NCBI GenBank assembly: GCA_030424545.1
Contig: JAUHWL010000009.1
Coordinates: 60,614-124,613, forward strand
Length of the DNA stretch: 64,000 nt
From: Bacteroidia bacterium
GTDB taxonomy: Bacteria > Bacteroidota > Bacteroidia > Flavobacteriales > Schleiferiaceae
Reading direction: 5' to 3'
The notes under the pieces were generated by a model that had not been told where the DNA came from, made no database searches, and saw only the letters and a list, made by a program, of their open reading frames with translations. How positions within the stretch are numbered: position 1 is the stretch's first letter; every line of letters begins with the position of its first letter. Shown here piece by piece: positions 2,719-64,000 of this stretch. A program made the position numbers and the translations under genes.

Positions 2719-2723
2719 ATTTC

Positions 2724-2762: not shown

Positions 2763-2827
2763 CTTAATGTGCATGGATTGCCTTTAAATTGTGCAATCAT
2801 CAATCGTTAGTTATCCCTCAAAAATCA

Positions 2828-3901: not shown

Positions 3902-3907
3902 GTTTCT

Positions 3908-5077
3908 TTAGTATTCAAATGTTCCGTGTTCAGAAACAATGGTTAGTTTTTTCTTTTCAGCGGCTTCTACTCGCCCAACAATTTGTGCATCTACATTATA
4001 CTTATTAGAAATATTTATAATGCTTTCTGCCAAAGCTTCTGGTACATAAAGCTCCATTCTGTGGCCCATGTTAAAAACCTGATACATTTCTTCCCAAGCT
4101 GTTTTGCTTTCTTTTTGAATTAAAGAAAACAGTGGTGGCGTAGGAAACAGGTTGTCTTTAATGATGTGAACATCATCTACAAAATGCAAAACTTTGGTTT
4201 GTGCTCCTCCGCTACAGTGTATCATACCATGAATATCATGCCGATGATTATCCAATATTTCTTTAATAATAGGCGCGTAAGTTCTGGTAGGTGATAAAAC
4301 CAATTTACCTGCATCTAGCTCTACTCCATCAACATTATCAGTTAAACCTAAACTTCCGCTATACACCAATTCTTCGGGCACAGCCGGATCATAACTTTCT
4401 GGATATTTTTTAGCTACATCTTTGTTAAAAACATCATGTCTGGCACTGGTTAAACCATTGCTTCCCATACCGCCATTGTATTCTGTTTCGTAGGTAGCTT
4501 TTCCAAAACTTGCCAAACCCACAATTACATCGCCAGGTTTTATATGGGCATTGTCTATTACATCTGTTCTTTTAAGGCGAGCAACAACGGTAGAATCTAC
4601 CACAATTGTTCTAACTAGGTCTCCTAAATCGGCTGTTTCGCCTCCGGTAGAAATAATATTTACACCGTGTTTTTTGTACTCTTCTAACAGTTCTTCAGAA
4701 CCATTGATAATTGCAGAAATAACTTGGCCTGTAATTAGGTTTTTGTTACGCCCAATGGTAGAAGAAAGCATGATGTTTTCAGTAGCTCCAACGCAAAGTA
4801 GATCATCAATATTCATGATAAGCGCATCTTGTGCAATACCTTTCCAAACCGATAAATCTCCGGTTTCTTTCCAATACATGTAGGCTAAAGAAGATTTTGT
4901 TCCTGCACCATCGGCATGCATTACTAGGCAATAATCATCATCGCCTGTTAAATAATCTGGAACAACTTTGCAAAATGCTTTTGGGAAAAGCCCTTTGTCT
5001 ACATTTTTTATTGCTTGATGAACTTCTTCTTTTCCGGAAGAAACGCCTCTACTGGCGTAACGTTTACTTTTTTCCAT
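3908..5077 (-). CDS. purM: Phosphoribosylformylglycinamidine cyclo-ligase (AIR synthetase)
   Basis: Fifth step of purine synthesis: ATP-dependent ring closure of FGAM to AIR. The ATG at 5077 (MEKSKRYASRGV) is preferred over the upstream one at 5095, because homologues start close to the YASRGVSSGKEEVHQAI segment. The protein is then 389 residues, matching the long Bacteroidota-type PurM. ATP and substrate motifs include MHADGAGTKSSLAY, the NIDDLLCVGA segment and STGGETADLGD. It heads the purM-prfA group. The two neighbours have unrelated functions, so the linkage probably reflects conserved gene order only. Confidence 0.93.
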   Translation of the reverse strand: MEKSKRYASRGVSSGKEEVHQAIKNVDKGLFPKAFCKVVPDYLTGDDDYCLVMHADGAGTKSSLAYMYWKETGDLSVWKGIAQDALIMNIDDLLCVGATENIMLSSTIGRNKNLITGQVISAIINGSEELLEEYKKHGVNIISTGGETADLGDLVRTIVVDSTVVARLKRTDVIDNAHIKPGDVIVGLASFGKATYETEYNGGMGSNGLTSARHDVFNKDVAKKYPESYDPAVPEELVYSGSLGLTDNVDGVELDAGKLVLSPTRTYAPIIKEILDNHRHDIHGMIHCSGGAQTKVLHFVDDVHIIKDNLFPTPPLFSLIQKESKTAWEEMYQVFNMGHRMELYVPEALAESIINISNKYNVDAQIVGRVEAAEKKKLTIVSEHGTFEY

Positions 5078-5266
5078 GGCGGCAAAAATCGTCAAAAAAA
5101 GAGGATGTTTTAAAAGCTTTTTTAGAAAAAATAAATTGTTTTAAAGATTACTATTCACATAAATATGCATTTAGCCAAGCTTTAAATTTTATTATTAGCC
5201 AGAAAATATAAATGCTTTTAAAAAAATCATTTCCGCATACTAATATGTACTGTGTAAAACATAAAA

Positions 5267-5294
5267 AAAGCCCTCGAAAAATATCGAGGGCTTT
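5267..5294 (-). terminator. Terminator of the PorE-like gene
   Basis: An 11-base inverted repeat (aaagccctcga / tcgagggcttt) with a 6-base loop lies 23 bases past the stop at 5317. On the minus strand the stem is followed by a T-run (aaaaaaa at 5262-5269 read in reverse). The rest of the 5078-5316 gap is AT-rich, and I see nothing else in it. Confidence 0.8.
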
Positions 5295-5316
5295 ATATAA
5301 ACGTATCTAGTTTCTC

Positions 5317-7824: not shown

Positions 7825-7885
7825 ATATGGTACTAGATATTTTGTATCTGTTAGCGGACTAAGATAGATATTCTTATAAAATAAA

Positions 7886-7915
7886 AAAAAGCTTCTAAAA
7901 TGTTTAGAAGCTTTT
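7886..7915 (-). terminator. Terminator of glutamine synthetase III
   Basis: A 14-base inverted repeat (aaaaagcttctaaa / tttagaagcttttt) with a tiny loop lies just past the stop at 7932. T-rich sequence follows on the minus strand. It separates the gene from the downstream PorE-like gene. Confidence 0.75.
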
Positions 7916-7931
7916 TAATTATGTGCTGTAA

Positions 7932-10121: not shown

Positions 10122-10203
10122 AATTAAATTATTTTTAATTTTTTCGGCAACAAATGTAAATTTTTTAGGGGGTCTCGCAATTTATTGTTAATAATATTTG
10201 CAA

Positions 10204-49950: not shown

Positions 49951-50865
49951 TTAACTGCTTTGCGATATTTGAGTATTAATTATTTCTAGTGCTTCTTTAA
50001 AACTGCGGGGCGCATAATTTAAATCTTTTATTGCCTTTTCTAGTATAAAACCAGTAATAGGTGGGCGTTTAGCTGGTTGGTTTAAATGCTCTGTTGATGA
50101 TCTTTTTATTAAATGACTTGGCAATTTCCAATGCGCAGCTACGTGTTGCACAAGTTCATATATACTCATAAAGTTTTTGCCGGAAATATTATAAATCCCC
50201 GTGGCACCTTTTTGGGCAACCAACATGCACCCAATGGCTAAATCTTCTGCCAGGGTTGGTGTTCTAAACTGGTCATCTACTACATTAATTTCTTGGCCTT
50301 TTTCTAAGGCACCTTTGGCCCACAATACTATATTACTGCGGCTCATGCCTTCTGTAATACCAATTACCAAAACTGTTCTTACAATAGACCATGGGCAACT
50401 GCATTGCTTAACTATTTCTTCAGACTTTAATTTACTTTCTCCGTAATAGCTCAGCGGGTTTGGCTCATCATCTTCGGCATACGGGCCGTTCTTGCCATCA
50501 AAAATAAAATCGGTAGAAACATGTATGAGATGAATGTTGAGCGCATCACAAGCGTCAGCCAAGTGTTGTACTGCTGTAACGTTTAGCAAATCACACTCTT
50601 CGTGATTTTTTTCGCAGGCATCCACGTCTGTCATGGCCGCGGTATTGATTACGGCATCAGGCTTTTCTTTTTCTAGCACAGAAAACACTTGGCTTTTGTT
50701 GGTAATATCCATTTCTATAAACCGATATCCAGATTGATCATTCATCCGATTACCTCCTCTGGCCGTAGCAATTAAATCAAGCGTTTTATCATCTTTAAAA
50801 CCATAAATAATTTTTTGGCCTAAAAGGCCATTGCTACCTGTAATAAGAACTTTAAGTGTTGCCAT
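49951..50865 (-). CDS. dTDP-4-dehydrorhamnose reductase-like SDR
   Basis: 304 residues of the extended SDR family. The Rossmann motif is ITGSNGLLGQKIIYGF, followed by NTAAMTDVDACE, HVSTDFIFDGKNGPYAEDDEPNPLSYYGESKL with the catalytic YxxxK (YGESK), and later FRTPTLAEDLA. It resembles RfbD, which reduces dTDP-4-keto-rhamnose. No other rhamnose genes are nearby, so a different sugar-nucleotide or a moonlighting role remains possible. Confidence 0.85.
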   Translation of the reverse strand: MATLKVLITGSNGLLGQKIIYGFKDDKTLDLIATARGGNRMNDQSGYRFIEMDITNKSQVFSVLEKEKPDAVINTAAMTDVDACEKNHEECDLLNVTAVQHLADACDALNIHLIHVSTDFIFDGKNGPYAEDDEPNPLSYYGESKLKSEEIVKQCSCPWSIVRTVLVIGITEGMSRSNIVLWAKGALEKGQEINVVDDQFRTPTLAEDLAIGCMLVAQKGATGIYNISGKNFMSIYELVQHVAAHWKLPSHLIKRSSTEHLNQPAKRPPITGFILEKAIKDLNYAPRSFKEALEIINTQISQSS

Positions 50866-50878
50866 GTTTAATATCTTT

Positions 50879-51889
50879 TTAGCCCTTTATTAAGGCTCTC
50901 AATTTTTCTATTTGTTCATCATCTCCTAATACAAACAATTTAGAGTTAGGTTTTAAAACCAAATCAGAACCAGGGTTTATTACAAAATCTCCGTTTACAG
51001 TTTTAATACCTATAACGTTGCAACCCGTTCTTTTTCTAATATCTAAATCTATTATTTGATGCTCTTTATTGCCCTTGGTTAAGTCGCTTAGCAACACCTC
51101 TTCTATGTATGAAGAAGAAACACCAGCAATATCTATATGGTCTAAAAACTCAACCACATCTGGCTTCATTAAATTATGGGCTAAGTGAGATCCGCCAACA
51201 ATATTGGGCGACACTGTATAATCGGCACCTGCTGCGAGCAGCTTCTTCTCAGTGCTTGCATGATTTGCTCTACTTACAATGCGCATATTTGGATTTAATT
51301 GTTTTGCCGAAACAACAACAAACAAGTTATCAGCATCATTATGTAGGGCAGAAATTAACGCGCTTGCCTTAGAAATACCCGCTGCAACAAGCATTTCATC
51401 TTGTGTAGCATCACCCTCTATATAAAGTAAATTAGGATTCAACTTTTTCATAGATCGTAGCTCGTCTACATTTTGATCTATTACAATAAAAGGTTGCTTG
51501 TATGCAATGATTTTTTCTGCCGCTTGCTGGCCGTTTCTGCCATAACCACAAATTATTACATGCCCTTCTAGCTGGTCTATTTGCTTTTGCACTCTAACTG
51601 TTTTTAGATGATTTTGTAAACTTCCGTCTAATACCAATTGGGTAATTTGGGAGATGCCATAGGCGAAAGTACCAAAACTGATAATGATTAAAAATATGGT
51701 AAACTCCTGGCCATACCCTCTAAAGGGGTGAACTTCGTTAAATCCAACCGTAGAAACGGTTTGAACGGTCATGTACAAGGCATCTACAAAGTTGTAGTTT
51801 TCTAAAACCATGTACCCAATTGTGCCAACCGCCACTGTACCGGTAATTAAATAAATAATTTTTCGGAGCGCGCGCAGCGGATTCCTCAT
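50879..51889 (-). CDS. Two-TM potassium channel with RCK (TrkA-N/TrkA-C) domains
   Basis: 336 residues. The first helix is IIYLITGTVAVGTIGYMVL, a pore loop with filter TVGFNE follows (in MTVQTVSTVGFNEVHPF), and the second helix is FTIFLIIISFGTFAYGI. The NAD-binding RCK domain is HVIICGYGRNGQQAAEKI..., with AAGISKASALISALHNDADNLF and a TrkA-C domain at the end. The filter reads TVGFNE where most K+ channels have TVGYGD, as in some MthK/Kch-like members. It is 13 bases upstream of the reductase gene. Confidence 0.88.
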   Translation of the reverse strand: MRNPLRALRKIIYLITGTVAVGTIGYMVLENYNFVDALYMTVQTVSTVGFNEVHPFRGYGQEFTIFLIIISFGTFAYGISQITQLVLDGSLQNHLKTVRVQKQIDQLEGHVIICGYGRNGQQAAEKIIAYKQPFIVIDQNVDELRSMKKLNPNLLYIEGDATQDEMLVAAGISKASALISALHNDADNLFVVVSAKQLNPNMRIVSRANHASTEKKLLAAGADYTVSPNIVGGSHLAHNLMKPDVVEFLDHIDIAGVSSSYIEEVLLSDLTKGNKEHQIIDLDIRKRTGCNVIGIKTVNGDFVINPGSDLVLKPNSKLFVLGDDEQIEKLRALIKG

Positions 51890-51908
51890 TTCTTGTTCCT
51901 GCTAAAAA

Positions 51909-52139
51909 TTATAAATCGAAAACTGAAGTTCTGCGGCTATTGATAAAATCTTTAATGCGGATAACAAAGGCCAAAGCAAAATAAATAATAAGCGGTGAGC
52001 CCAATGTCATAAACGATGCATAAATAAAAAACAGCCTGATTTGTGCTGTTTTTATTCCGAGTTTATCGCCTAACCTGGCGCATACTTCGTACCCGCGAGT
52101 TTCAAAAAAAGTACGAAGATTTTCTATAAAATTTTTCAT
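51909..52139 (-). CDS. PspC domain protein
   Basis: 76 residues starting at ATG 52139 (MKNFIENLR). This start overlaps the upstream stop as ATGA, so translation is coupled. The PspC pattern is FFETRGYEVCARLGDKLGIKTAQIRLFFIYASF, with one or two membrane helices (MTLGSPLIIYFALAFVI). PspC acts in membrane-stress responses in other bacteria. A longer reading frame starting at 52178 would run far into the upstream gene and is not favoured. Confidence 0.82.
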   Translation of the reverse strand: MKNFIENLRTFFETRGYEVCARLGDKLGIKTAQIRLFFIYASFMTLGSPLIIYFALAFVIRIKDFINSRRTSVFDL

Positions 52140-53401
52140 TGTTTTAGGATTTTCACTCCTATGGCGCAAGATAAACATTTTCTGTGCCTACAATAATTTT
52201 TATGCAATTGCAATGCGGCCTGAGACGCTAATGCGGTGGGTAGCTCAAAACCACTTTCTACAAATGTGCGCGTTACTTTATTATCCTCAGGTTTTAGTTG
52301 TTCTAACCAATCAAACACCGTGATTTTTTGTTTTTCTTCTCCACGCAAATTGCTATAATGAAACAGCACCGGAATTACTGCATTAATTAAAACTTGTACA
52401 GCCAAATTTGCCGATACCGATTTGTTTTGCACAGCAGATTCTTTTCCGAAATTATAATGCGTATCCCAATATGTATGGATGGGAACTCTTAAAATATCCA
52501 TCAATTTGGTTGGCGAGCTTAGCTGCATGGCCAACCTAAACACATCAGGGGTGGTGCTTAATATGGCGGCCAATTGCGCCAAACGCACAGGTGGAAAGGC
52601 AATAGGCCGCAAACGAGCAAATTTAAATTGCTCCTTATTTACTGGTGTTAATCCATATTTTTTCTGCCAATGCAAAAATTCTTTTTTTAGGTTTTGCTGA
52701 TATTCATCTTCGCCCTCTAAAAAACCCGCCATGCCCATAAAAATAGACTCTACTTCTAACGGGTTGTTTTGATGTTTTCTAACAATTGATAATGGAATAT
52801 TAGAGGCCAACCTCAACATGGCTTCGGCATTTACTTTAAGGCCGAACGCATAAAACATCATCCTATAAAATGTTTCGCTCCAATCTTTGTTGGTTTCTAA
52901 AAACACTTGGTGCACAAAGGCGGCTTTTTCTTCTAAGCGTTCTACTAAGGTTTTATCTAACATGGCGTTTATGTGCAACGGTTCCATGTGCTTTACTTGA
53001 TTTCCGCAAGGCAAATCTCTTTTGGCACTTACAAATTGCTCGTAGCGCCAATAGCCCATTTCATCAATCTTGCCTTTTAATTCTAAGGTTGGTATTTCTG
53101 TACCATCTTCCCGAATTGCAGGTGCGTCATCTTGGTACACTACGTGTAAAATCACGTTGTTGTAGGCTTTGTCTTTTTGGTGATTGTGCTTTGTCCAATC
53201 GCTGCTATTTACGTGCAGCTCTATGTGCCCAGCCCAGGTGGTTTCATTTAATTGTACAGAACCTTCTAAAAAATCTGGCCCTGCATCGTGGTTGTGATGG
53301 CCTTTTTTTAAAATGGTAATGGATTGTCCGCCAACCGTTTTTAGCTCGTTGGTTTCAAACAAGCCGTGTTTCCAGATGTAATGTAGATAGTCTTCGGACA
53401 T
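52136..53401 (-). CDS. DUF2851 family protein
   Basis: 421 residues with the N-terminal pattern YLHYIWKHGLFETNELKTVGGQSI, GPDFLEGSVQLNETTWAGHIELHVNSSDW and NVILHVVYQDD. The acidic and His residues look like a nuclease-type beta core, but that is only an impression. A C-terminal cluster of cysteines (CRHRKCLSCAIG) may bind a metal. It shares an ATGA overlap with the PspC gene. The function of the family is not known to me. Confidence 0.85.
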   Translation of the reverse strand: MSEDYLHYIWKHGLFETNELKTVGGQSITILKKGHHNHDAGPDFLEGSVQLNETTWAGHIELHVNSSDWTKHNHQKDKAYNNVILHVVYQDDAPAIREDGTEIPTLELKGKIDEMGYWRYEQFVSAKRDLPCGNQVKHMEPLHINAMLDKTLVERLEEKAAFVHQVFLETNKDWSETFYRMMFYAFGLKVNAEAMLRLASNIPLSIVRKHQNNPLEVESIFMGMAGFLEGEDEYQQNLKKEFLHWQKKYGLTPVNKEQFKFARLRPIAFPPVRLAQLAAILSTTPDVFRLAMQLSSPTKLMDILRVPIHTYWDTHYNFGKESAVQNKSVSANLAVQVLINAVIPVLFHYSNLRGEEKQKITVFDWLEQLKPEDNKVTRTFVESGFELPTALASQAALQLHKNYCRHRKCLSCAIGVKILKQ

Positions 53402-53609
53402 GGTTGAACCAAAGTAAATTTTTGTTTTAAGTTCTGCAAGTGTTGTATCGCTAAGGGCGGAAAGAATAACGCAAAGTTTCGCAAAGGTTGTTTCACAGAG
53501 TTACACGGAGGCAAACGCAAAGTTTCACAGAGAAATTGCATTGCCGAGGGCAAAAGGATTTACCGCTAAATCCCCTAAAGGGGACGTTTTAATTTTAACT
53601 AAAAAAGTT
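53402..53609. repeat. Noncoding gap with short direct repeats and a CCCCTAAAGGGG palindrome
   Basis: The 12-mer acgcaaagtttc occurs at 53469-53480 and 53515-53526. The 10-mer tttcacagag occurs at 53491-53500 and 53523-53532. The palindrome tcccctaaagggga is at 53571-53584. I have seen similar CGCAAAG/CACAGAG and CCCCTAAAGGGG stretches in intergenic DNA of other Bacteroidota. No gene is visible here. Confidence 0.6.
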
Positions 53610-55070
53610 CTAATCTGAAGTTTTTAAAACAGGAATAGAAACGCTTTCTGTACCCGAAAAAAGCTGAACAAAATAAGTTCCATCAGGTAAATTCTGAAAA
53701 CCATTTATATGAATTTCGTTTTCTCCACCATTAAAATTTTGTTTTTGGGCAATTACTTTTATATGTCTGCCCAGCATGTCTATCAAGAAAATATCAAGCG
53801 CAGAATGTTTTAATAATGTGAATCGCAAACGCGCTTGGTTTTTTACTGGATTGGGAAAGAAAACAACATTTGAGTTAATTAAATTATTTTCATCAATGCC
53901 AATATTTATTCCAGAATGATAGCGGGCAACAAACACATCTAATGGATACCCAGTCATACCAGTAACCAAAATTTTTCCATCCTGCTGCATTGCTGCAGCC
54001 GAAACATAAACTTCAAATGGAATTACTTCTGCTCTACCGTTATTTCCGAAACTTGAATCTAATTTTGCATGGCTATCATACCTCATAATTCTTAAGCTAT
54101 CATTATGCTCATAATGAATAAGGAATTTACCGTCTTGTTGAAGCAAAAGTCTTCCCCAAACTGCAGGTATTGAATCAATTATTTTAAAACTAGTATCTAC
54201 AGTTCCGTCTTGCTGTAGGCAAATAATTTTTCCCTGATAATTTATTTCGCCAAAAATCAACATTCTATCATCAGGTAAAATTTTTAGTTCTGTAACTGTA
54301 TTCAGAAGGTCTGGAGAAAGAACGTATTGACCATTAGTCCCAAAAGTAGAATCAGGCTGACCATCAATTGAATACTTAAATAATTTTACACCGGTATTAG
54401 AAGCAGATGCAAGAAAAATATCCTCATTCGAATTAAAATCAGCACCTCCCATATGATAATCGTAAATTCCATTATGCGTAATTACCAATCCATTGTTACC
54501 AAAAGTTGAATCAATTTTTAAATTATATGTTAAGGCAATTATTCCTTTCCGTAGGCCGTTTTGAGTAACCAATAACAACCGACCAGAATTCTGAATTAAC
54601 AGATGATCAGGATACTCATAATCGTATATGTCAATTAATACTTCTTTTTCTAATAACCCTGTTTTTGTTAATCGACATATCCATAAATCAATTTGATTTC
54701 CAGTCTGATTTGAAAAAGAAGTACTTCCTGCTAAAAATATTTTTCCTTGTGGATGTTGTTTTATATTATCCCGTCTAAATGTGCTGTGTTGATTATTAAA
54801 TATATACTTCCCATCATTATTAAAATTAGAATCAAGTGTGCCATTATCTTTTAAGGCTATGATCCAAGGCTTAGAATTTAATGTGGTATATGTATTTCCA
54901 ATTACAATAATTTCTCCCGTATTTAATTGTAGAATTCCAGTACTGCTATTCTGCGTGTAATAAATTTCATTAACAAATCCACTAGAATTAAACGTAGAAT
55001 CTAAATACCCAGCTTGGGCAAAAACAAGATTTACAGAAAGCAATAAAAAAGATAAAATAAAACTTCTCAT
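53610..55070 (-). CDS. Secreted delta-60 repeat protein with T9SS type A sorting domain
   Basis: 486 residues with a signal peptide (MRSFILSFLLLSVNLVFAQ). The body consists of delta-60 repeats of about 50-60 residues, each ending in a motif like LDSTFGNNGLV (DSTFNSSGFV, DSNFNNDGKY, DSTFGTNGQY, DSSFGNNGRA). These probably form a beta-propeller. The last 80 residues are a T9SS sorting domain: VVFFPNPVKNQARLRF, FLIDMLGRHI, LPDGTYFVQLF. It is probably released or surface-attached through T9SS. The ligand is unknown. Confidence 0.9.
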   Translation of the reverse strand: MRSFILSFLLLSVNLVFAQAGYLDSTFNSSGFVNEIYYTQNSSTGILQLNTGEIIVIGNTYTTLNSKPWIIALKDNGTLDSNFNNDGKYIFNNQHSTFRRDNIKQHPQGKIFLAGSTSFSNQTGNQIDLWICRLTKTGLLEKEVLIDIYDYEYPDHLLIQNSGRLLLVTQNGLRKGIIALTYNLKIDSTFGNNGLVITHNGIYDYHMGGADFNSNEDIFLASASNTGVKLFKYSIDGQPDSTFGTNGQYVLSPDLLNTVTELKILPDDRMLIFGEINYQGKIICLQQDGTVDTSFKIIDSIPAVWGRLLLQQDGKFLIHYEHNDSLRIMRYDSHAKLDSSFGNNGRAEVIPFEVYVSAAAMQQDGKILVTGMTGYPLDVFVARYHSGINIGIDENNLINSNVVFFPNPVKNQARLRFTLLKHSALDIFLIDMLGRHIKVIAQKQNFNGGENEIHINGFQNLPDGTYFVQLFSGTESVSIPVLKTSD

Positions 55071-55079
55071 AGGTTAAAA

Positions 55080-55775
55080 TTAAAACAACGTTTTCAACTC
55101 CCCCAAATTAGCAATTTCAAACGTTAATTTTTCTTGGTGCGGCACTTTATCTGGATTAAAATACACTTGGTCCATGCCTACTCTGCGCGCGCCAACACAA
55201 TCTACTTGAAGATTATCGCCAATCATAATGCTTTCTTTGCGTTTGGCCCCTGCCTTTTGCATGGCATATCTAAAAATAACAGGGTCCGGTTTGTTTACTC
55301 CGGCAATTTCGCTGGTAATTTCGTGGGTAAAAAAAGGTTTTAAACCGCTCTTAGTCATTTTAATATCCTGCACTTCGGTAAAGCCGTTGGTAATTATGTG
55401 CAACGCATATTTTTCCGACAAATAGCCCAAAACTTCTAGCGCGTGCGGAAAGAGATTTGTTTTCTGCGGAGACCTTAAAATATATTCCTGGTCTATTTCT
55501 GCAGCCAATTCGGGGTGGTCTATTTCAAAACGAAGTAGAGTATCATAAAACCGCGTTGCGCGCAAAACTTCTTTCGTTATTTCTCCTTTTCGGTATTGAT
55601 CCCATTTTAAATCATTTACAATCTTGTAGGTTTTTACAAAATCTTCAAATGCTTCTATACCGTAATTTTTTAAGCTATAGATTTCAAAAAGTTCTTCAAG
55701 TGTTTCTCTGCTGTTTTTGTTAAAATCCCAAAGCGTATGGTCTAAATCGAAGAAAATATGTTGGTAATTGTTCAA
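55080..55775 (-). CDS. yjjG: Noncanonical pyrimidine nucleotidase, YjjG family (HAD)
   Basis: 231 residues of the HAD family. Motif I is FFDLDHTLWDF (nucleophile Asp and DxD), motif II IITNGFTEVQ, motif III the Lys in SEIAGVNKPDPVIF, and motif IV MIGDNLQVDCVGARRVG. YjjG hydrolyses unusual pyrimidine nucleotides and dUMP/TMP, cleaning the pool. It is close to upp, another pyrimidine gene, but separated from it by 81 bases. Confidence 0.88.
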   Translation of the reverse strand: MNNYQHIFFDLDHTLWDFNKNSRETLEELFEIYSLKNYGIEAFEDFVKTYKIVNDLKWDQYRKGEITKEVLRATRFYDTLLRFEIDHPELAAEIDQEYILRSPQKTNLFPHALEVLGYLSEKYALHIITNGFTEVQDIKMTKSGLKPFFTHEITSEIAGVNKPDPVIFRYAMQKAGAKRKESIMIGDNLQVDCVGARRVGMDQVYFNPDKVPHQEKLTFEIANLGELKTLF

Positions 55776-55856
55776 ATCCGAATGGGTGTTAAGTTGATGA
55801 GGAAATAAGTTAGTGAAAATCGGCTATTGACCATCACCGAAAAGTTATCGACCATT

Positions 55857-56507
55857 TTACATTTTTGATCCGTAAGCTAAATCGCCAGCATCGCCCAAGC
55901 CAGGTACTATGTAGGCGTGTTTGTTTAGGTGCGCATCTATAGCTCCCAACCAAAGTGTATCTATTTCTGGTATTTTATTTTGCAGTTCTGCGATGCCTTC
56001 TGGCGCGGCAACCACACATGCCACGTGTAGCTTTTTAGGTGTACCTCTTTTTAAAAGCGCAGCATAGCCACCTATTAAGCTGCTGCCCGTAGCCAACATG
56101 GGGTCAATTAAAATTACAGTGCGCCCTTCTAGGTTTGGGCTCGCCAAATATTCTATGTGAGCTTTAATTTCATCAACACTACCTTCATCGCGATAAGCTG
56201 AAATAAAGCAATGATCGGCACCATCAAAAACTTCTACAAACCCTGAGTGCATGGCTAAGCCAGCTCGTAAAACCAAGGCAATTATGGGCTGCTCTGCCAA
56301 AACATGAGATGCCGACACCGCCAGCGGTGTTTGCACGTCTGCCTTTTTGTAGGCCAATTGCTTGCTGATTTCATAAGCCATACAAACGCTAATACGTTTG
56401 ATGTTTTCTCTAAAACGTGCCCGATCTTTTTGCGTATCTATATTGCGCAACTCAGCCATATATTGGCTAATAATTGATGGGGTTTCTGAAAAATTAACGA
56501 TGTGCAT
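55857..56507 (-). CDS. upp: Uracil phosphoribosyltransferase
   Basis: Salvages uracil with PRPP to UMP. I choose ATG 56507 (MHIVNFSETP), not 56531, which gives 216 residues. The PRPP loop is VILIDPMLATGSSLIGGY, and the uracil-binding end is YIVPGLGDAGDLAYG. ALVLRAGLAMHSGF is also typical. The upstream terminator (56561-56609) isolates it from the M16 protease. Confidence 0.94.
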   Translation of the reverse strand: MHIVNFSETPSIISQYMAELRNIDTQKDRARFRENIKRISVCMAYEISKQLAYKKADVQTPLAVSASHVLAEQPIIALVLRAGLAMHSGFVEVFDGADHCFISAYRDEGSVDEIKAHIEYLASPNLEGRTVILIDPMLATGSSLIGGYAALLKRGTPKKLHVACVVAAPEGIAELQNKIPEIDTLWLGAIDAHLNKHAYIVPGLGDAGDLAYGSKM

Positions 56508-56560
56508 GATCTCTACTTTTTTGCCTAACAAACAAGGCGCAGCATTTGGAATAAGTGCAA

Positions 56561-56609
56561 AAAAAGGGTGTTTATAAAGCTTAACAAATCGACTTTACAA
56601 ACACCCTTT
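56561..56609 (-). terminator. Terminator of the M16 protease gene
   Basis: An 11-base stem (aaagggtgttt / aaacacccttt) extended by ataaag / ctttac, with a long loop, then a T-run on the minus strand. It starts 6 bases past the stop at 56615. Confidence 0.8.
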
Positions 56610-56614
56610 GTTGC

Positions 56615-59425
56615 TTATTTCTCTGGCATTAATACCGTAATAATTCTGTTTTCTGCAATGTATTTGTTGGCTGCAGTTTTCACGTCATTTACCGTTAACG
56701 CCTCTATTTGTGCTTCTATATTTAATATGTTATTAAAGTCTTCTTGATTGTACAGCATATCGTTTAAGCTGGCAATCCAAAAACGATTGGTTTTTAAGCT
56801 TTCTTTCAACTCTAGCCTTTGCCCTTCTTTTACCTTGGCAAGGTCTTTTTCGGTTGGGCCATCTTTCAATAATTTATCTAGCTCGGCCAAAGCAGCTTCT
56901 TTTAATTTATCTACGTTTTCTGGTCCGCAAGGGAAAGAAATGCTGAAATTATATACACCTTTGGGCCATTGCGAAACATAGCTTCTGGCACCAACTCCGT
57001 ATACTCCGCTTTCGCCTTCGCGCAGATTTTCTACCAATTTTATGGTTAGTGCTTCTGCCGCACATTTTAAATAGTAAGCGTCTTTTTCGTTGTATTTGGC
57101 TTCTGTTCTAAAGGTTATTTCAACAGAACTTTTTGGGTCTTCGCCTTTATAAAAAACAAATTCTTGTTGTCCTTTTAAATGCTCATAAGGGTGATCTACC
57201 CACGTTTCTTTTTTATTGGTTGATGGCAAACTTGCCAAATATTCGGTGGCATATGTTACCAATTTAGCTTCATCAAAAGAACCAACAAACAAGAAGGTAA
57301 AATCGCTAGCATCTGCAAAACGCTGCGTGAAATATGTGTAAGCCAAATCGTAATTCTGATTGGCAAAATCCTCGGCCGTGGGTATGGCATTGGTAAACCT
57401 AGGGTTGTTTTTCTGGGTTACTTTGGCTTTTTCATTCATATACCAATATTGTGGTGTATTTAGCAAGTTCCCCAAAAACGCAGTTTGCTTGTCTACATAG
57501 GTTTGGTAAGCCTCTTGGTCTTTGTTTAACGCTGTAAAGTTTAAATAGATTAATTGAAACAATTCTTCTAAATCTTTATTTACAGATGTACCGCGCATTC
57601 CTTCATAATTTCCATAAACAAACGGACTCACAGAAACTTCTTTTCCGGTCATTATTTTTACCATATCATTTTTGCTAAAGCCATTTAAACCGGCTTCTTG
57701 CAATCCTCCCATGGCCAAACTTGTACTGTTATAATCTTCGTCTGACGCAATGGTAGATGAACCTCCCGGACTGTAGGCACGCATTAAAATTTCATTATCG
57801 CTAAAGTTGGTTTTTTTGTAATAAACCGTTGCACCATTAGAAAGGGTAATTTTAGTTACACCAATTTTTTCTAATTTTTCTGTTTTAACAATTTTGCCTG
57901 GTTTTGGTGCTTTTGTAATTAATGATTCAGCAACTTCGGCATCTTCATAAGGAGCCAAATCCATGGTTTTCACTTCATCCAATACTTTTAAAACTTCGGC
58001 TTCAGTAAACACAGGAATATCTTCTCCTTCTGGTCCGGTAAATACGATTACACGATTATCATCATGTATAAACTTTGTGATCAACTCATTTACATCAACC
58101 AGTTTTATTCCTTCATACAAAACTTGGTGCGCCTTTAACTCGGCTGTAATCCCCGGAATAGGCTCTTCTTCTAAAAAGTTATTTACCAATTCGTTTACCA
58201 ATCTGCGCGATTCTGTTTTGTCTTTGTTATCAACCATAGATTGTAACGAGGCCAAGGTTTCTTTTTTAGCGCGGCTAAGTTCTCCTTCCGTAAATCCGTG
58301 GCGCAAAACGCGCTCGTTTTCTACTACCAATGTTTTAAATGCCATTAATTGGTTTTCTGGCGATGTCATGGCAAAACTCTGGTATGCATTTTTATTTCGG
58401 CTCCAGCTACTCCCGTAAAAAGAGTACCCATAGTTAAATGGTGGATTTGGGTTGTTTGCAATTTCGGCCAGACGGTTATTAATCATATTGTTGAAGAGGC
58501 TATTTACCAAGCTTAGGCGGTAATCTGCTATGGTAACTTCACGTTTTGCTCTGCCCTTTTCTTTGTAAACCAATTGTACTTGCGCAAACGAAGCTTCTTT
58601 ATCTTTCTCTATGGCCACAAATGTTTCTTTATGATCTGGCACTGTATATTCTATGCGCTTTTTTTCATCTTTTGGATTTTTATACTTGCCAAAATGATCT
58701 TTAATTTTTTGCTCCATTTCTGCCACATCAATATCGCCCACCACAACAACGGCCATTAAATCTGGTCTGTACCACGATTTGTAAAAATCTTCTAGCTCTT
58801 TATATTCAAATGTTTCTAGTACCTCTTTTGATCCAATCGGTAACCTTTTTGCGTACTGCGAATTGTACATCATTTTTGGCAAATATTCGGCCAACATGCG
58901 CTGATCTGCGCCCAAACCCAAACGCAATTCTTCTAACACAACACCACGCTCTTTGTCTATTTCCGCAGGGGTTAATAGGCAGTTAAATGCCCAATCTTCA
59001 ATAATATCAAATCCTTTTTCTAGCTTTTCGGCATCATCGCTTGGCAATGGTAAAATGTACACCGTTTCGTCAAAGCTGGTGTAGGCATTTAAATGTTGGC
59101 CAAATTTTACACCAATACTTTGCAAATAATCTACCAACTCATTGTGCTGAAAATTTTTGGTGCCGTTAAAATTCATGTGCTCCATAAAGTGAGCCAAACC
59201 GCGCTGCTTATCTGTTTCTAAAATAGATCCAGCGTTTACAACCAAACGCAATTCTACTTTGTTTTCGGGCATGCTATTTTGCCTGATGTAGTAGGTTAAA
59301 CCGTTTTCTAGTTTGCCAATTTTTACATCCTTGTTAACCGGAATTGGGCTGTTTATGTCTAAGTAATCTTGCGAAAACGCAATAAAACTGAGACCAATAA
59401 ATAAAGAGAGAAAGACTTTTTTCAT
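56615..59425 (-). CDS. Secreted M16 family zinc metallopeptidase (insulinase type)
   Basis: 936 residues with a signal peptide (MKKVFLSLFIGLSFIAFSQ). The inverted zinc motif HFMEH is at 79-83 (GLAHFMEHMNFNGT), and the third ligand Glu is in ERGVVLEELRLGLG. The second half repeats the fold without the motif, as in two-domain M16 proteases. It should degrade peptides in the periplasm. A similar long M16 protein is widespread in Bacteroidota. It is monocistronic by its flanks. Confidence 0.92.
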   Translation of the reverse strand: MKKVFLSLFIGLSFIAFSQDYLDINSPIPVNKDVKIGKLENGLTYYIRQNSMPENKVELRLVVNAGSILETDKQRGLAHFMEHMNFNGTKNFQHNELVDYLQSIGVKFGQHLNAYTSFDETVYILPLPSDDAEKLEKGFDIIEDWAFNCLLTPAEIDKERGVVLEELRLGLGADQRMLAEYLPKMMYNSQYAKRLPIGSKEVLETFEYKELEDFYKSWYRPDLMAVVVVGDIDVAEMEQKIKDHFGKYKNPKDEKKRIEYTVPDHKETFVAIEKDKEASFAQVQLVYKEKGRAKREVTIADYRLSLVNSLFNNMINNRLAEIANNPNPPFNYGYSFYGSSWSRNKNAYQSFAMTSPENQLMAFKTLVVENERVLRHGFTEGELSRAKKETLASLQSMVDNKDKTESRRLVNELVNNFLEEEPIPGITAELKAHQVLYEGIKLVDVNELITKFIHDDNRVIVFTGPEGEDIPVFTEAEVLKVLDEVKTMDLAPYEDAEVAESLITKAPKPGKIVKTEKLEKIGVTKITLSNGATVYYKKTNFSDNEILMRAYSPGGSSTIASDEDYNSTSLAMGGLQEAGLNGFSKNDMVKIMTGKEVSVSPFVYGNYEGMRGTSVNKDLEELFQLIYLNFTALNKDQEAYQTYVDKQTAFLGNLLNTPQYWYMNEKAKVTQKNNPRFTNAIPTAEDFANQNYDLAYTYFTQRFADASDFTFLFVGSFDEAKLVTYATEYLASLPSTNKKETWVDHPYEHLKGQQEFVFYKGEDPKSSVEITFRTEAKYNEKDAYYLKCAAEALTIKLVENLREGESGVYGVGARSYVSQWPKGVYNFSISFPCGPENVDKLKEAALAELDKLLKDGPTEKDLAKVKEGQRLELKESLKTNRFWIASLNDMLYNQEDFNNILNIEAQIEALTVNDVKTAANKYIAENRIITVLMPEK

Positions 59426-59502
59426 AATGATTTACAATTTTAGTTTAGGTATGCGGGATTATTATTAAAGGTTATATATGTTATGATTATTCTACAAATA
59501 AA

Positions 59503-60585
59503 TTAAGGGCTTTGTGTAAAGAGTTCTATCAATTCTCGCGCGGCCGTAAATGGGCTAATTTGATTTCTTTTTATTTCGTCTTCAAGCACGTGTAACCTCG
59601 CTTTTACCTGCAAATTAGTTTGAAAATGATTGAGTAAACTTTCTGTTATTGTTTCGCGCAACCAATAACTTGCTTGATCTTCTCTGGTTTTACTAAAAAA
59701 ACCTTTGGTTTTCATGTGGCGCTCAAAACGTTCTGCATCCTGCCATACCCCTATAATATTTTTATTTTCAAGTGCAGAACATAATTGTACAGGCACTTTC
59801 CATCCGTTTGAAGATGGGTACAGGTTAAGAGCGCGTTTAGCGTCTAATGAAGCATTTCGTGCACGAGATTCATTTTCGCCATCGGCTTTGTTTATAGCAA
59901 TACCATCGGCCATTTCCATAATGCCGCGTTTTATGCCTTGCAACTCATCGCCTGCTCCGGGCAAAAGCAAGAGCAAAAAATAATCTACCATGCTGTTTAC
60001 GGCCGTTTCACTTTGGCCCACTCCAACGGTTTCTATCATAATTATATTAAACCCTGCGGCCTCACAAAGTATGGATGTTTCTCGTGTTTTTCTGGCCACC
60101 CCTCCCAAACTACCTGCGCTTGGGCTAGGGCGAATGAAAGCTTGTTCGTGTTGGGATAGTTTTTCCATGCGGGTTTTATCGCCCAGAATACTGCCTTTGT
60201 TTTTCTCGCTGCTTGGGTCTATGGCCAACACCGCCACTTTTTTATTTTCTTGGGTAATGAGATGCAACCCAAAACTTTCTATAAAGGTGCTTTTTCCTAC
60301 ACCTGGCACACCAGTAATGCCAATACGAAGCGCATTGCCCGAATGAGGCAAACACGCATTTATTATTTCTTCTGCTAGTTTTTGATGGTCTGGTTTGGTG
60401 CTTTCTACAAGGGTAATGGCTCTGCTTAAAATGCTTATATCGCCTCCCAAAATACCAGCTATGTAATTTTTAGCCGACAAGTGTTTCCCTGTTTTTGCGT
60501 TGATGCGCAAATTAGGGTTTAGGGCTCCTGCCCCCTCTACTCCGGGCATTACATGTAAAGCTGATTTATTTTTTTTTCGCATCAT
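59503..60585 (-). CDS. meaB: Methylmalonyl-CoA mutase-associated GTPase MeaB (ArgK/LAO family)
   Basis: G3E-family GTPase that loads and protects adenosylcobalamin on methylmalonyl-CoA mutase. The P-loop is ITGVPGVGKSTFIESFG, followed by AIDPSSEKNKGSILGDKTRM, MIETVGVGQSETAV and NKADGENES. I choose the ATG at 60585 (MRKKNKSAL); an earlier one is at 60618, inside the upstream gene. It overlaps the dehydrogenase gene by 20 bases. No mutase gene is in the window. Confidence 0.9.
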   Translation of the reverse strand: MMRKKNKSALHVMPGVEGAGALNPNLRINAKTGKHLSAKNYIAGILGGDISILSRAITLVESTKPDHQKLAEEIINACLPHSGNALRIGITGVPGVGKSTFIESFGLHLITQENKKVAVLAIDPSSEKNKGSILGDKTRMEKLSQHEQAFIRPSPSAGSLGGVARKTRETSILCEAAGFNIIMIETVGVGQSETAVNSMVDYFLLLLLPGAGDELQGIKRGIMEMADGIAINKADGENESRARNASLDAKRALNLYPSSNGWKVPVQLCSALENKNIIGVWQDAERFERHMKTKGFFSKTREDQASYWLRETITESLLNHFQTNLQVKARLHVLEDEIKRNQISPFTAARELIELFTQSP

Positions 60586-61786
60586 AAACTCCGTCAACAT
60601 AATTTTGAAGGTACGCAAAATGCGGGGTTAACTTTCCATCTTTCGTTTCGCTAGCACGCCAAATTATTTCATCTTTATCATCATTTACCAAAGAGGGAAA
60701 AACGTTTTCTAATAAATCGTTCCCAAAATTTACAGAAGAATCTCGTGGCAATTCGCAAGGCAAATTATCTACAGCCATAACACCAATGCTATTTTTTTGG
60801 CCAAATTCCACTTCTATTTCGCGCTTTGCATCATAGCCGTAAAACGGATTTGCTATTGTGCTCGGTCTTAGTGTACTCGCCACAGGCCCATCAATATCGC
60901 AACTGATGTCTGCTACAAACTTTAAGTTAAATTCTGGGTGACGAGCGTCTTCTCTGGTAAATATAAATGGTGCTTTAGAATCCCAATAATGACAAGCAAT
61001 ATATATATCTGCTTGTTTGGCAAAGTTCATAAAGGTAGAATGGTGCCCAATGGGGTCTTTATAAAATGCTTCTTGATTAAATGGCTTGCCATCATCCCTA
61101 GCGTTGTACTCATCAACAGAAATATCGGTAAATACAGGGGTATCAAAATTCTTTTCTAAAAACTCTTTTGGCTCAACTTGCGTAAAACCAGCCTTGTGAA
61201 GTGTTTCAATAGCACCACCAGCCACTCTACCCTTGCCTGTTAAAACAATTTTAGGGTTGCTGGCAAAGTTTTTATGCATCAACTCTTTGTCCATTTCTAC
61301 TCGGTCATGGCATTGGTGCGCAGGCCTCAGCGTAAATGGCTCGTTAAGTTGCGCCCAACCCCGAAGTGCATTATATGCACCAACAACTCCGGCCCATTTG
61401 CCAAAAGCAACAATACGGTTTCCTTGTTGGTCTGTAAGCTTTTCATAATCTACCAACTGTATATTTTTCTCTATAATGGCTTTTAGCAAACCTCTGTTAT
61501 AGCTCTGCATTTTGTATGTATGAGAAAAAAAGAAAAACATTTTGTTGGGGATAAGCATAGCAATAGGCACTTCTTTAACCCCCATGATAATATCACATTG
61601 GGACAAATCATCAACTACAGAAATGCCAACGGCTCTATATTCATCATCTGTAAAAGCCCTGATTTCACTTTTTTGTACAACCACATCAATACCAAACGTT
61701 TGTTTTAATAATACACATTGCTTGGGCGATAACGGTACACGTTTGTCGGGCGGATTTTTACCTTCTTTTATTATGCCTATTTGCAT
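60566..61786 (-). CDS. Saccharopine/alanine dehydrogenase-like oxidoreductase
   Basis: 406 residues. The N-terminal domain reads IGIIKEGKNPPDKRVPLSPKQ and KSEIRAFTDDEY, as in alanine dehydrogenase and fungal saccharopine dehydrogenase (lysine-forming). The NAD-binding part is KIVLTGKGRVAGGAIETL. The segment FVADISCDIDGPVASTLRPSTI is typical of the LYS1-like group. The substrate is uncertain. It overlaps meaB and is probably transcribed with it. Confidence 0.8.
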   Translation of the reverse strand: MQIGIIKEGKNPPDKRVPLSPKQCVLLKQTFGIDVVVQKSEIRAFTDDEYRAVGISVVDDLSQCDIIMGVKEVPIAMLIPNKMFFFFSHTYKMQSYNRGLLKAIIEKNIQLVDYEKLTDQQGNRIVAFGKWAGVVGAYNALRGWAQLNEPFTLRPAHQCHDRVEMDKELMHKNFASNPKIVLTGKGRVAGGAIETLHKAGFTQVEPKEFLEKNFDTPVFTDISVDEYNARDDGKPFNQEAFYKDPIGHHSTFMNFAKQADIYIACHYWDSKAPFIFTREDARHPEFNLKFVADISCDIDGPVASTLRPSTIANPFYGYDAKREIEVEFGQKNSIGVMAVDNLPCELPRDSSVNFGNDLLENVFPSLVNDDKDEIIWRASETKDGKLTPHFAYLQNYVDGVYDAKKK

Positions 61787-61940
61787 TGACTGAAATTTTT
61801 AGAGATTCAAAAATAACGGTTCAAGGTTATTTTTAGTTCAATTTTTAGTAGATAGATTTTTATTTACGCACATCCGGTACGCGGTAATTTATAAAACGAA
61901 ACAATCTAGCATAATGGCCCAAAACCATAGATTTCTATTG

Positions 61941-61948
61941 TATTTTTG
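61941..61948 (+). promoter_or_regulatory. -7 promoter box of ssrA
   Basis: TATTTTTG fits the TAnnTTTG consensus and ends 14 bases before the mature tmRNA. No clear -33 TTTG is visible. Confidence 0.5.
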
Positions 61949-61962
61949 CGCACTAAACTTTT

Positions 61963-62356
61963 GGGGCTGACTGGTTTTGACAGCAAGATGAAGGTTTTAG
62001 TAAGCATGCCGAGCTGTGAAGATGTACCTCGTAAAACTGCTACTTCAACACTATAACTGGCGAAAATAATTACGCTCTTGCCGCATAATCTAGCTGTATG
62101 CAGATTTTGCTAATCGTGCACTAGGTGCACGAGTGGGACATCTCTCAAAAGCCTAAGTCAGGTGGCGTTTGATAAAGAGGTGTGGTAAAAACCGGACTAG
62201 GGTTGTAGATGCTGCGGTTACATTCCGAAATTAAGTAGCTAAGCCAAAGAATGGGTGCTCTTTCTCGCGCTTTGGTCGAAAATTAAAAAGGAGATAAGCA
62301 TGTAGAAAGCTAAGGGTTTCCTTGTTTGGACCGGGGTTCGACTCCCCGCAGCTCCA
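61963..62356 (+). ncRNA. ssrA: tmRNA; tag GENNYALAA
   Basis: Rescues stalled ribosomes. The tRNA-like ends pair as GGGGCTG (61963-61969) with CAGCTCC (62349-62355), and the T-loop is GGTTCGACTCC. The tag frame runs from GGC at 62059 to TAA at 62086-62088 and encodes GENNYALAA, the usual Bacteroidota tag. CCA is not encoded. tmRNA genes are frequent insertion points for genomic islands. Confidence 0.96.
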
Positions 62357-62357
62357 C

Positions 62358-62400
62358 AAAAAAGGGGTAAACAATTTTAAAATTGATTACCCCTTTTTTA
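62358..62400 (+). terminator. Terminator of ssrA
   Basis: A long stem: ggggtaa / ttacccc with an inner caatttt / aaaattg, A-rich before and T6 after. It follows tmRNA directly. The rest of 62401-62502 shows nothing recognisable. Confidence 0.85.
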
Positions 62401-62502
62401 TTTCAATCAAGTTTATGAAATAGTTTTTGCATGGCAATTACGGCTTGTTTTAAAACCACATGGCACCTAGCAAAATTTGCATCATATAAAACAGGCCACA
62501 AA

Positions 62503-62529
62503 AAAAAGACCGCGTTAAACGGCCTTTTT
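62503..62529 (-). terminator. Terminator of the SH3-domain gene
   Basis: On the minus strand AAAAAGGCCG pairs with CGGTCTTTTT (one G-U pair), followed by more T. The G-U pair forms only on the minus-strand RNA, which gives the direction. Confidence 0.65.
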
Positions 62530-62576
62530 AGTGTTGTGTTTTTTACGGAAAAGAGGGTTGTGCATCAGCTACTGGT

Positions 62577-62586
62577 GTTGTAGAGC
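62577..62586. repeat. Boundary repeat GTTGTAGAGC (inverted partner at 63243-63252)
   Basis: Reads gttgtagagc on the plus strand. The exact inverted copy gctctacaac is at 63243-63252, so the two enclose the gene at 62598-63230. Confidence 0.7.
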
Positions 62587-62597
62587 GTTTTTATTTT

Positions 62598-63230
62598 TTA
62601 TACTATCCATCCAATTAGTCTTTGGATTATTCTTCCATTTCTAACAACCCAAATTGATTCGTAATATTCACTTCCGTCTCCAAGTCTCATGCGGTAATAA
62701 ACAAATTCTTTATAGCGATATATTTTTAATTTTCCTTTAAAAACTAAATTTGAACTGGAATAGATTCCCGAAGGTAAAAATGGAGTCAACACATCCTTTG
62801 AATATTTAAAATCTTGTTGAATTGTATCAACATTCTGAACAATCTCAATTTTATCCAACTCAAATGACTCAGTCAATGGTAAATTCATTCCACCATAGAA
62901 ATTTCTATTTTCAGATTCTTTCGCTGGTTTGATATTGAAAATAAGCTCAGGAATATTTTCGGTCGGAGTTTCAAGTTTGGTAATTTCGATTATTCTGCTG
63001 TAGTGTACGAACCCAGTTTTATAATCTTCTCCGTATTCAATTGCTATCCAAATTGAGTCTTCTGAATCCGCGCTTATGAAGAAAACTTCCCCTTCTTGTA
63101 GTTTGTCAATTACTTTTCCTGAAGGACTTTCTCTGACATTCAAATAACTATCGGAGTCCGTTACAATTCCAATTTGCCCCCAGGAGTTTGTTGAGATAAT
63201 AAGTGTTATTATTAAATAAAGGTTTCTCAT
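62598..63230 (-). CDS. Secreted SH3b-domain protein
   Basis: 210 residues with a signal peptide (MRNLYLIITLIISTNSWGQ). A bacterial SH3 domain lies at about 20-85 (DSYLNVRESPSGKVIDKLQEGEVFFI, then IWIAIEYGEDYKTGFVHYSRI). The remaining 120 residues are of unknown fold. SH3b domains often bind peptidoglycan. It is enclosed by the 10-base inverted repeat GTTGTAGAGC and preceded by an attC-like palindrome, so it looks like a mobile gene cassette. Confidence 0.8.
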   Translation of the reverse strand: MRNLYLIITLIISTNSWGQIGIVTDSDSYLNVRESPSGKVIDKLQEGEVFFISADSEDSIWIAIEYGEDYKTGFVHYSRIIEITKLETPTENIPELIFNIKPAKESENRNFYGGMNLPLTESFELDKIEIVQNVDTIQQDFKYSKDVLTPFLPSGIYSSSNLVFKGKLKIYRYKEFVYYRMRLGDGSEYYESIWVVRNGRIIQRLIGWIV

Positions 63231-63245
63231 GTCTCTTTTAATGCT

Positions 63246-63376
63246 CTACAACGGCTAAATAAAATTTCGAGCGGGAGACGAAGACGAAGTCGAGTCCACC
63301 GTGACGAAATTTATGGTTAAAAATAGAGGCGCTGGGAACTGCCAAAACCCCGCTTGAATTTTATTTTTTGTTGGGC
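63246..63376 (-). repeat. attC-like imperfect palindrome, 131 bases
   Basis: On the minus strand the site opens with GCCCAAC (63370-63376), which fits the attC R'' consensus RYYYAAC, and ends with GTTGTAG (63246-63252), near GTTRRRY. Between them are arms at 63349-63366 (cccgcttgaattttattt) and 63257-63275 (aaataaaatttcgagcggg). These pair over about 18 bases with one mismatch and one extra base. The inner 73 bases are variable. This fills the gap between the two small genes. Confidence 0.55.
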
Positions 63377-63387
63377 ACAGTTTTGAT

Positions 63388-63801
63388 TTATTCATCACGG
63401 GGTATTTGAGATAAAAATGTATCAGCAATCCAACATTTATAAATTGATCTATCACCAAATTTAGGGTTGTCATTTTTTACGATAATCTGCGAAATTTCAT
63501 ATTGCCCTAAACTTGAATAGATGCCAACATCTTTTCCTATTTCCACTGACGTGCCTGGAAAAGCCGCACTGTCGGTTAGTCCATTGACCAGTCTTAAATA
63601 TCTCTTTATGTCTGCGCTGTCATTTATTATTTATAAACAGGGAACGCGATATCTAAATTCACTTGGTGGGCAAATAAATCCCAGTTCAGATTCTTCAAAT
63701 CTGTCATAGTCAGTTGGTATAACTAAGGCAAGAACGGCACCAAATATTCCACCGACCAATACAACTATCCAAAAGAATTTATTTCTTAAAATTTCTAACA
63801 C
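63388..63801 (-). pseudogene. Small membrane protein gene interrupted by an in-frame TAA
   Basis: On the minus strand, GTG at 63799-63801 opens a frame encoding MLEILRNKFFWIVVLVGGI..., with one membrane helix, that stops at TAA 63631-63633 after 56 residues. The same frame continues past the stop, without another stop, for 80 codons to 63388: NDSADIKRYLRLVNGL, AAFPGTSVEIGKDVGIYSS, YEISQIIVKNDN. This downstream part looks coding. The likeliest reading is one gene of about 137 codons with a nonsense mutation or a base error. Two separate short genes are less likely, because no good start codon follows the stop. Confidence 0.55.
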
Positions 63802-63822
63802 TCCCAGTTTGTTTCAATTGCA

Positions 63823-63888
63823 CCCCAACGTTCTGTGTATGGTGCGTATCCCGAAGGGTATGCACTATACACCTTGTGCCTGTTGCAC
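63823..63888. repeat. attC-like hairpin, 66 bases
   Basis: Outer boxes ccccaac (63823-63829) and gttgcac (63882-63888) enclose a long stem, gtgtatggtgcgtatccc (63835-63852) against gggtatgcactatacac (63856-63872), with loop gaa. Differences between the arms are mostly G-U compatible, plus one extra base. Size and layout are like a short attC site. The remaining 63891-64000 shows no gene. Confidence 0.55.
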
Positions 63889-64000
63889 AACTTTTCAAAT
63901 ATACCCGTTAGTAACTAGCCAATCAAAGTTTACCAACAAAAAGTTAAGCTTATTAACTTGTAGCAATGCAAGGCAAAAAATCGTATTCCGAAAAACTATT

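Follow-up and report, generated by a model that had tools for sequence, protein, structure and literature searches.

The right end of the window (the whole stretch of 64,000 nucleotides that was analysed, positions 60614-124613 of contig C10 of the genome under study, G000) is very probably the tail of an integron-like cassette array, whose units have moved whole between related genomes; the most likely agent is a tyrosine recombinase whose gene lies on a different contig (C3) of this genome. The sequence-only reading of this DNA had proposed an integron-type array, perhaps a new cassette system. Our analysis supports this proposal, and what we found is not a standard IntI integron, as that reading had half suspected.

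The cassette array beside the tmRNA gene

The right edge of the window is the end of contig C10. Along the minus strand and in the direction of the tmRNA gene, the order is a 126-base repeat, site 2, cassette B, site 1, cassette A, a terminal sequence and a terminator. The individual features are as follows.

61963-62357, plus strand: tmRNA gene (ARAGORN, Rfam), neighbour of the array and convergent with it
62500-62529, minus strand: intrinsic terminator AAAAAGGCCGTTTAACGCGGTCTTTTTTTT closing the array; the hairpin is the same, or nearly so, at the remaining array ends except that on C12
62558-62579, minus strand: terminal motif AACANNNGTARCNNNTGCACAA, the conserved array end (found in 14 of 34 genomes; with the pattern reversed, in 0 of 34)
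62577-63252, minus strand: cassette A, 676 bp, GTTGTAGAGC ... GCTCTACAAC, with 10-nt complementary ends; recurs in genome G021
62598-63230, minus strand: gene A, 210 aa, with a weak match to bacterial SH3 that stays under the Pfam cut-off
63244-63378, minus strand: attC-like site 1 (GCCCAAC ... hairpin ... GCCGTTG), separating cassette B from cassette A, matched by covariance model R1
63370-63829, minus strand: cassette B, 460 bp, GTTGGGGTGC ... GTGCCCAAC, with ends complementary over 6 nt
63388-63801, minus strand: gene B, GTG start, with one in-frame stop
63821-63883, minus strand: attC-like site 2, short type, hairpin GTGTATAGTGCATACCC..GGGATACGCACCATACAC, matched by model R1; a near-identical site occurs in genome G090
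63875-64000, minus strand: 126 bases identical to positions 1-126 of C10; the contig ends here and the beginning of the array lies beyond it

Both palindromes that had been noticed around the gene at 63388-63801 are present, at 63244-63378 and 63821-63883 of the minus strand. The small gene between them looks broken because of its in-frame stop, and no Pfam match was found at E 1 with X placed at the stop. The impression that all genes point the same way holds for the genes of the array but not for the tmRNA gene, which lies on the opposite strand. The 126-base repeat found at both ends of C10 stops near an attC-like R box, GTGCAACAGGCACA, beyond which the sequence differs.

Cassette organization and end boxes

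We showed that the cassettes of these arrays can be described by one rule: a GTT-X box, the gene and an X'-AAC box (X' being complementary to X), followed by a hairpin site that extends to the next GTT. Among the 12 array terminals of G000, the AAC box can be paired with a GTT box over a complementary run of at least 9 nt in nine cases and over 10 nt in eight; the corresponding numbers for 1260 other AAC positions, used as a control, were 64 and 22. As for the three remaining terminals, that on C16 fits at the first of two overlapping AACs and that on C8 differs by one base (both by eye), and no paired end box was found for the one designated C10a. The sequence-only reading had seen this rule at gene B, where the boxes agree over 6 nt only; it is the neighbouring cassette A that has the full 10-nt complementarity.

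The same reading had pointed to the box GCCCAAC as an exact fit to RYYYAAC. The fit is real, but RYYYAAC does not hold as a rule of the family: the classical R boxes (GTTRRRY / RYYYAAC) were found on neither side of any of 75 cassettes of relatives (those with walker-called runs of at least 9), in which the GTT/AAC core is kept, and only one of the 17 five-prime boxes listed for G000 fits the classical consensus. A naive search for chains of paired GTT/AAC boxes was rejected. It was strand-symmetric and noisy (141 chains in 309 kb of the reversed control), and was therefore replaced by the walker, which accepts runs of 8-10, and by a covariance model.

Hairpin sites

The covariance model (R1) was derived from three other genomes, those of Winogradskyella ursingii, Flavobacteriaceae bacterium S0862 and Seonamhaeicola aphaedonensis. 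Of 17 sites taken from them, 14 were aligned (two sites of odd length and a diverged one were left out). The aligned sites share a stem of 18 pairs, seven of them with changes on both sides, a count also reached in 23 of 500 shuffles. The proportion of paired cells was 93.7%, compared with 83.0% in shuffles and 24-40% with a slid partner, and the cells changed on both sides numbered 23 (6.7 in shuffles). Like the attC of classical integrons, these sites form an imperfect hairpin with conserved pairing.

When R1 was run with filters off on positions 50000-64000 of the window, the two palindromes ranked first and second of 34 matches (E up to 10). They had been taken for attC-like from the letters alone, and both do score in the model: site 2 with 24.2 bits (E 1e-4) and site 1 with 14.1 bits (E 0.04). 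The third match was the terminator hairpin behind the tmRNA gene (13.1 bits, E 0.071); since a plain terminator hairpin scores nearly as high, site 1 is weak by R1 alone. Single-sequence folding showed the palindromes to be no stronger than shuffled sequence (z -1.05 and -1.02) and, being at chance level, was therefore dropped as evidence. Rfam gave no match at the palindromes at gathering thresholds.

Over 34 sources, R1 produced 71 matches at E 0.1, including its own training sites and some reverse strands. In the genome-wide run (E 0.001, 24 genomes, up to 139 candidates scored in each), sites were found in 21 genomes, with 5 in G000 and at least 107 in G288; none were found among the candidates scored in G041, G053 and G054. 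The sites of G288 amount to a superintegron-sized array, with clusters on its contig C1 at about 3587000-3629000, 1300-10200, 3085000-3111000 and 2191000-2219000, both with and without a recombinase. Nine genomes have sites and no matching recombinase: seven of genus g66 (5-20 sites; no recombinase at E 1e-100, a strict limit), as well as G003 and G028 (6 and 7 sites; no recombinase at E 1e-30). Enzyme and sites are therefore not linked one to one.

Further arrays in the same genome

The element at 63240-63385 has six further copies on other contigs of G000 (E 2e-11 or better), two of which are partial (82 and 35 bases). One copy is located on C3, 3' of the gene of a 374-residue tyrosine recombinase transcribed in the same direction. 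The order on C3 is the recombinase, a hairpin AAACGCTATTGCGTTTATCCAATT, three cassettes (end boxes GTTAGGCGC/GCGCCTAAC, GTTACCTGC/GCAGGTAAC and GTTACCACAC/GTGTGGTAAC), and then a terminal sequence and terminator as in the window. No integrase had been in view beside the palindromes; an enzyme of the right kind is present in the genome, directly ahead of an array that has the terminal sequence of the window, but it is encoded on C3 and not on C10.

A search of G000 with the terminal sequence identified 12 places (E 2.5e-6 or better), including that of the window. Eight of them are at contig ends (C2, C3, C4, C8, C13, C14, C16 and C30), the assembly breaking off after 120-126 bases of the repeat (after 202 on C4). 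Followed upstream, the arrays start with a similar leader hairpin and then GTT in ten of the 12 cases; C10a and the window array reach the edge of the contig first, and two extra leaders (C15, C24) are located elsewhere in the genome. The arrays contain one to about four cassettes each (partly by eye). An intact recombinase gene precedes only one of the ten arrays with a leader in view, that on C3, and is missing from the other nine. Upstream of the leader on C30, 16 residues match the tail of the recombinase (69% identity, E 0.38); the match is not significant alone but is correctly placed, and is perhaps a fossil of such a gene.

Among the cassette genes of G000 are a pair resembling HigB/HigA, an N6 DNA methylase accompanied by an HTH protein, an ATPase of OLD/GajA-like type, a DMP19 protein and a DUF4304 protein; several others gave no family match. 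Three leaders, L080, L083 and L121 (on C2, C4 and C24), seem by eye to have two tandem hairpins instead of one. A diverged terminal motif lies inside the array on C12 (L087:10396-10417), as if two arrays had been joined. In a 230-bp cassette on C2 (L080, about 110-360), the only open reading frame found (69 aa) runs against the direction of the array.

The terminal motif AACANNNGTARCNNNTGCACAA was found at 63 places in the 14 genomes that carry it, and the reversed pattern at none; many of these motifs are followed by a terminator (by eye). Of 22 terminal places examined upstream, 12 have a cassette start that agrees in 9-10 of 10 bases, and in the other ten no cassette start was found within 1.5-1.9 kb. 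The terminal sequence resembles the first half of an attC, after which the terminator follows, and may be a truncated attC. As the motif is absent from 20 of the 34 genomes, including G288 and G298 with their large arrays, it is a feature of some lineages.

The sequence TAnnYTTG is a Bacteroidota-type promoter consensus. It occurs within 140 nt before 15 of 28 leaders (9 of 12 in G000, 6 of 16 in relatives), against a background of 384 in 3000 random windows, all taken from loci of relatives, which hints at a possible promoter in this position.

The recombinase

Ten tyrosine recombinases were found in G000, three of which were scored against the integron-integrase model, none of them reaching its cut-off. 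The C3 recombinase scored 186.8 bits against TIGR02249 (cut-off 265) and passed NF040815, the XerA model, with 220.2 bits (cut-off 220). Many C3-type proteins are named "site-specific tyrosine recombinase/integron integrase" by NCBI, which is the name of the NF040815 model. The R, K, H, R, H and Y positions are invariant in alignment A2 (8 proteins).

The additional domain of IntI, an insert of 40 residues near patch III, is absent from the C3-type recombinase. The spacing between patch II and HxLRH is 58 or 59 residues in the 24 readable rows of 27 (at least 50.9% identity; two proteins were entered twice), compared with 100 residues in five IntI rows, that of IntI1 among them. In four distant rows the pattern picked up an earlier stretch, which gave readings of 136-141. 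Moreover, residues 207-243 of VchIntIA (2a3v) have no counterpart in the C3 recombinase. In the tree, six IntI rows form one clade (100/100) devoid of C3-type rows, and the C3 enzyme and 12 relatives form a separate clade (99/98) outside it. Recombinase relatives also occur in archaea and Patescibacteria (L176, L178, L185, L192, L196, L197 and L163); the five that are readable have 56-59 residues where IntI carries its insert.

The C3-type recombinases have a family-specific N-terminal domain of about 95 residues. In Pfam it gave DUF5710 (E 4e-5, L053) and HARP (E 0.0014, L144), both below the curated cut-offs, and no match in five of the nine proteins tried. Foldseek with this domain alone found no match at E 0.001 or better; XPB (2fwr) ranked 7 (E 0.61) and the HARP domain of SMARCAL1 (4o66) ranked 14 (E 1.0). 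The likeness to HARP is therefore given as a lead only. With the whole model, about residues 90-371 were covered in the VIA-align listing. Another region of G000 (C26:4845-11435) contains three tyrosine recombinase genes within 6.6 kb, perhaps a recombinase-trio element.

Leaders and arrays in relatives

The scan of named genomes for the recombinase family yielded 593 loci, of which the best 80 were retained. Within the order, 20 of 395 genomes gave a match at E 1e-80, representing 18 of 108 genera (G000 included). Sixty relatives were drawn, none of them of the genus of G000. In all but one of the relatives' loci whose downstream DNA was read (18 of 19, the exception being L140), a GTT is located 41-70 nt 3' of the recombinase stop codon, and in 12 of the 18 the palindrome before this GTT beats shuffles at p 0.01. 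When the ten leaders of G000 are added, the mean arm is 9.1 versus 4.2 in shuffles and 20 of 28 leaders reach p 0.01, a comparison that is biased because the choice of the GTT in 15 leaders had required a palindrome; the remaining three leaders of relatives were placed by eye. The sequence of the leaders varies between genera and their palindromic nature stays.

The walker called 1 to 12 cassettes behind the leaders of 15 loci, and 21 in tandem in L249. Their end-box runs are mostly 9-10, and all spacers but four (39, 46, 55 and 86) measure 113-122 or 181-202 nt. Doubtful calls concern L246 (runs of 8, spacer 86) and L247 (spacer 39), and in L242 the array was lost after one cassette.

Movement of whole units

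Comparison of their DNA showed that the gene units have, as far as such comparison can tell, moved whole among relatives, cut at GTT. In L249, units extending from one GTT to the next are repeated with 100% identity at separate places, each time with different neighbours: there are four copies of a 470-bp unit, three of a 422-bp unit, and two each of units of 494, 2007 and 436 bp. A 771-bp unit occurs twice in G376 (L241), identical up to the C-GTT boundary; this genome also has two recombinase loci that are 98.7% identical, the likeness ending at the leader GTT, and cassettes 3 and 4 of L241 lie in tandem and are 89% alike. Cassette A of the window is also present in G021, which belongs to another genus of the family (86.8% identity of DNA, 88% of protein). 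The match starts 11 bases before GTT (the common end of a site) and ends at X'-AAC plus one base, and both flanks differ. In G021 the cassette comes after another one (run 9, spacer 117 nt), and no attC-like site was seen after it. These limits, together with the tandem repeats, define the unit as GTT-X, gene and X'-AAC, plus the following hairpin in the tandem cases. Relatives thus differ by whole units at the GTT boxes, precisely where gain or loss was to be looked for if the sequence-only reading was right.

Proposed mechanism and alternative explanations

We propose that the C3-type recombinase recognizes a folded hairpin in single-stranded form and would cut it at G/TT. Free cassettes would enter at the palindromic attI-like leader behind the recombinase gene; the similar leaders of other arrays may also be entry sites, served in trans by one enzyme, and the conserved terminal sequence and terminator would close each array, stopping transcription and further exchange. 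As the recombinase has no IntI additional domain, recognition of the folded strand would need another route, perhaps the family-specific N-terminal domain (about 95 residues). A broader view, which we regard as evenly balanced, is that the arrays represent a second integron class, widespread in Flavobacteriales and kin, that captures and shuffles cassettes with folded attC sites by means of an enzyme without the I2 insert; it would have a palindromic attI that may fold, an N-terminal, perhaps HARP-like, structure reader, a dedicated terminal site closing the arrays, and one enzyme serving a dozen arrays in trans.

An unlikely alternative, though the strongest of those considered, is that the cassettes were moved by the host XerC/XerD or by homologous recombination between attC sites, the adjacent recombinase having another role. 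One array can contain attC sites that hardly differ, so the 89% tandem duplication in L241 could arise in this way, and the nine genomes with sites and no matching recombinase would be explained. Such a process does not account for identical units recurring between different neighbours, or for a recombinase stop codon and a leader GTT that keep within 41-70 nt of each other in 18 loci. We consider it rather less probable that the arrays are remnants of a classical integron that came from bacteria with IntI, now an attC cluster lacking that integrase. The resemblance to classical integrons extends to the cassettes, the matched end boxes, the hairpin sites and the toxin-antitoxin and defence-like genes, and IntI integrons from Bacteroidota are reported in three papers (PMC8618304, PMC9668308, PMC2426708). 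However, the recombinase adjacent to the arrays has no 40-residue insert and falls outside the IntI clade, none of the 75 cassettes fits GTTRRRY or RYYYAAC, and the three of ten G000 recombinases that were scored stayed under the integron-integrase cut-off. Least probable are dispersed palindromic repeats of MITE or REP type lying between genes by chance, with genes that do not move along. Near-identical elements are indeed scattered over the genome, but the end boxes are matched for each gene unit, units of gene plus site are duplicated together at separate places, and two genera have cassette A in common without its flanks. Movement of whole cassettes, most likely by the C3 recombinase, remains our preferred reading.

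Relation to known systems

The arrays share with chromosomal (VchIntIA) and class 1 (IntI1) integrons the tandem cassettes with an attC-like hairpin behind each gene, the complementary cassette ends, the apparent shuffling of whole units (judged by comparing sequences), and a tyrosine recombinase gene beside the array (C3 and relatives) with an attI-like leader next to it. Classical integrons carry toxin-antitoxin cassettes, and such cassettes are present here. Unlike IntI integrons, they combine an integrase without the additional domain with a different R box and an often palindromic leader; some lineages have the conserved terminal motif and terminator, and G000 has many arrays, only one of them in view with a recombinase. 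Because the additional domain is absent and the R-box consensus is not followed, we do not file the system as an IntI integron, though it would work like one. The leader is situated 3' of the recombinase gene; archaeal attI sites are likewise placed immediately downstream of intI, according to PMC9668308.

The extra N-terminal domain of about 95 residues and the cassette arrays distinguish the enzyme from archaeal XerA and XerA-like proteins (NF040815, PDB 5hxy). XerA is a chromosome dimer resolvase. The nine G000 arrays with a leader and no intact recombinase in front resemble CALINs (clusters of attC lacking integrase) but, unlike these, have their own leader and terminal sequence.

Integron integrases are described as having gained single-strand recombination by acquiring the I2 helix (PMC7790495), and the IntI insert is called essential for integron function (PMC8138268). 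A large survey records one complete integron in Bacteroidetes proper, that of Salinibacter ruber M1 (PMC9024848). Earlier surveys probably missed the present system because its integrase and its site consensus both differ, and the integrase-only calls of the earlier survey might represent the C3-type family. No description of this integron-like system was found in the open-licence literature, partly accessible and with bioRxiv excluded, and no paper on integrons in Winogradskyella in open-licence literature, again excluding bioRxiv.

The toxin-antitoxin, methylase and OLD/GajA-like genes of the cassettes make these arrays a gene reservoir worth mining. Arrays that shuffle beside an enzyme without the insert would mean either an ancestral stage or a different means of recognizing folded DNA. 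If this is true, a phylum with one surveyed complete integron carries many of them, with at least 107 sites in a single genome.
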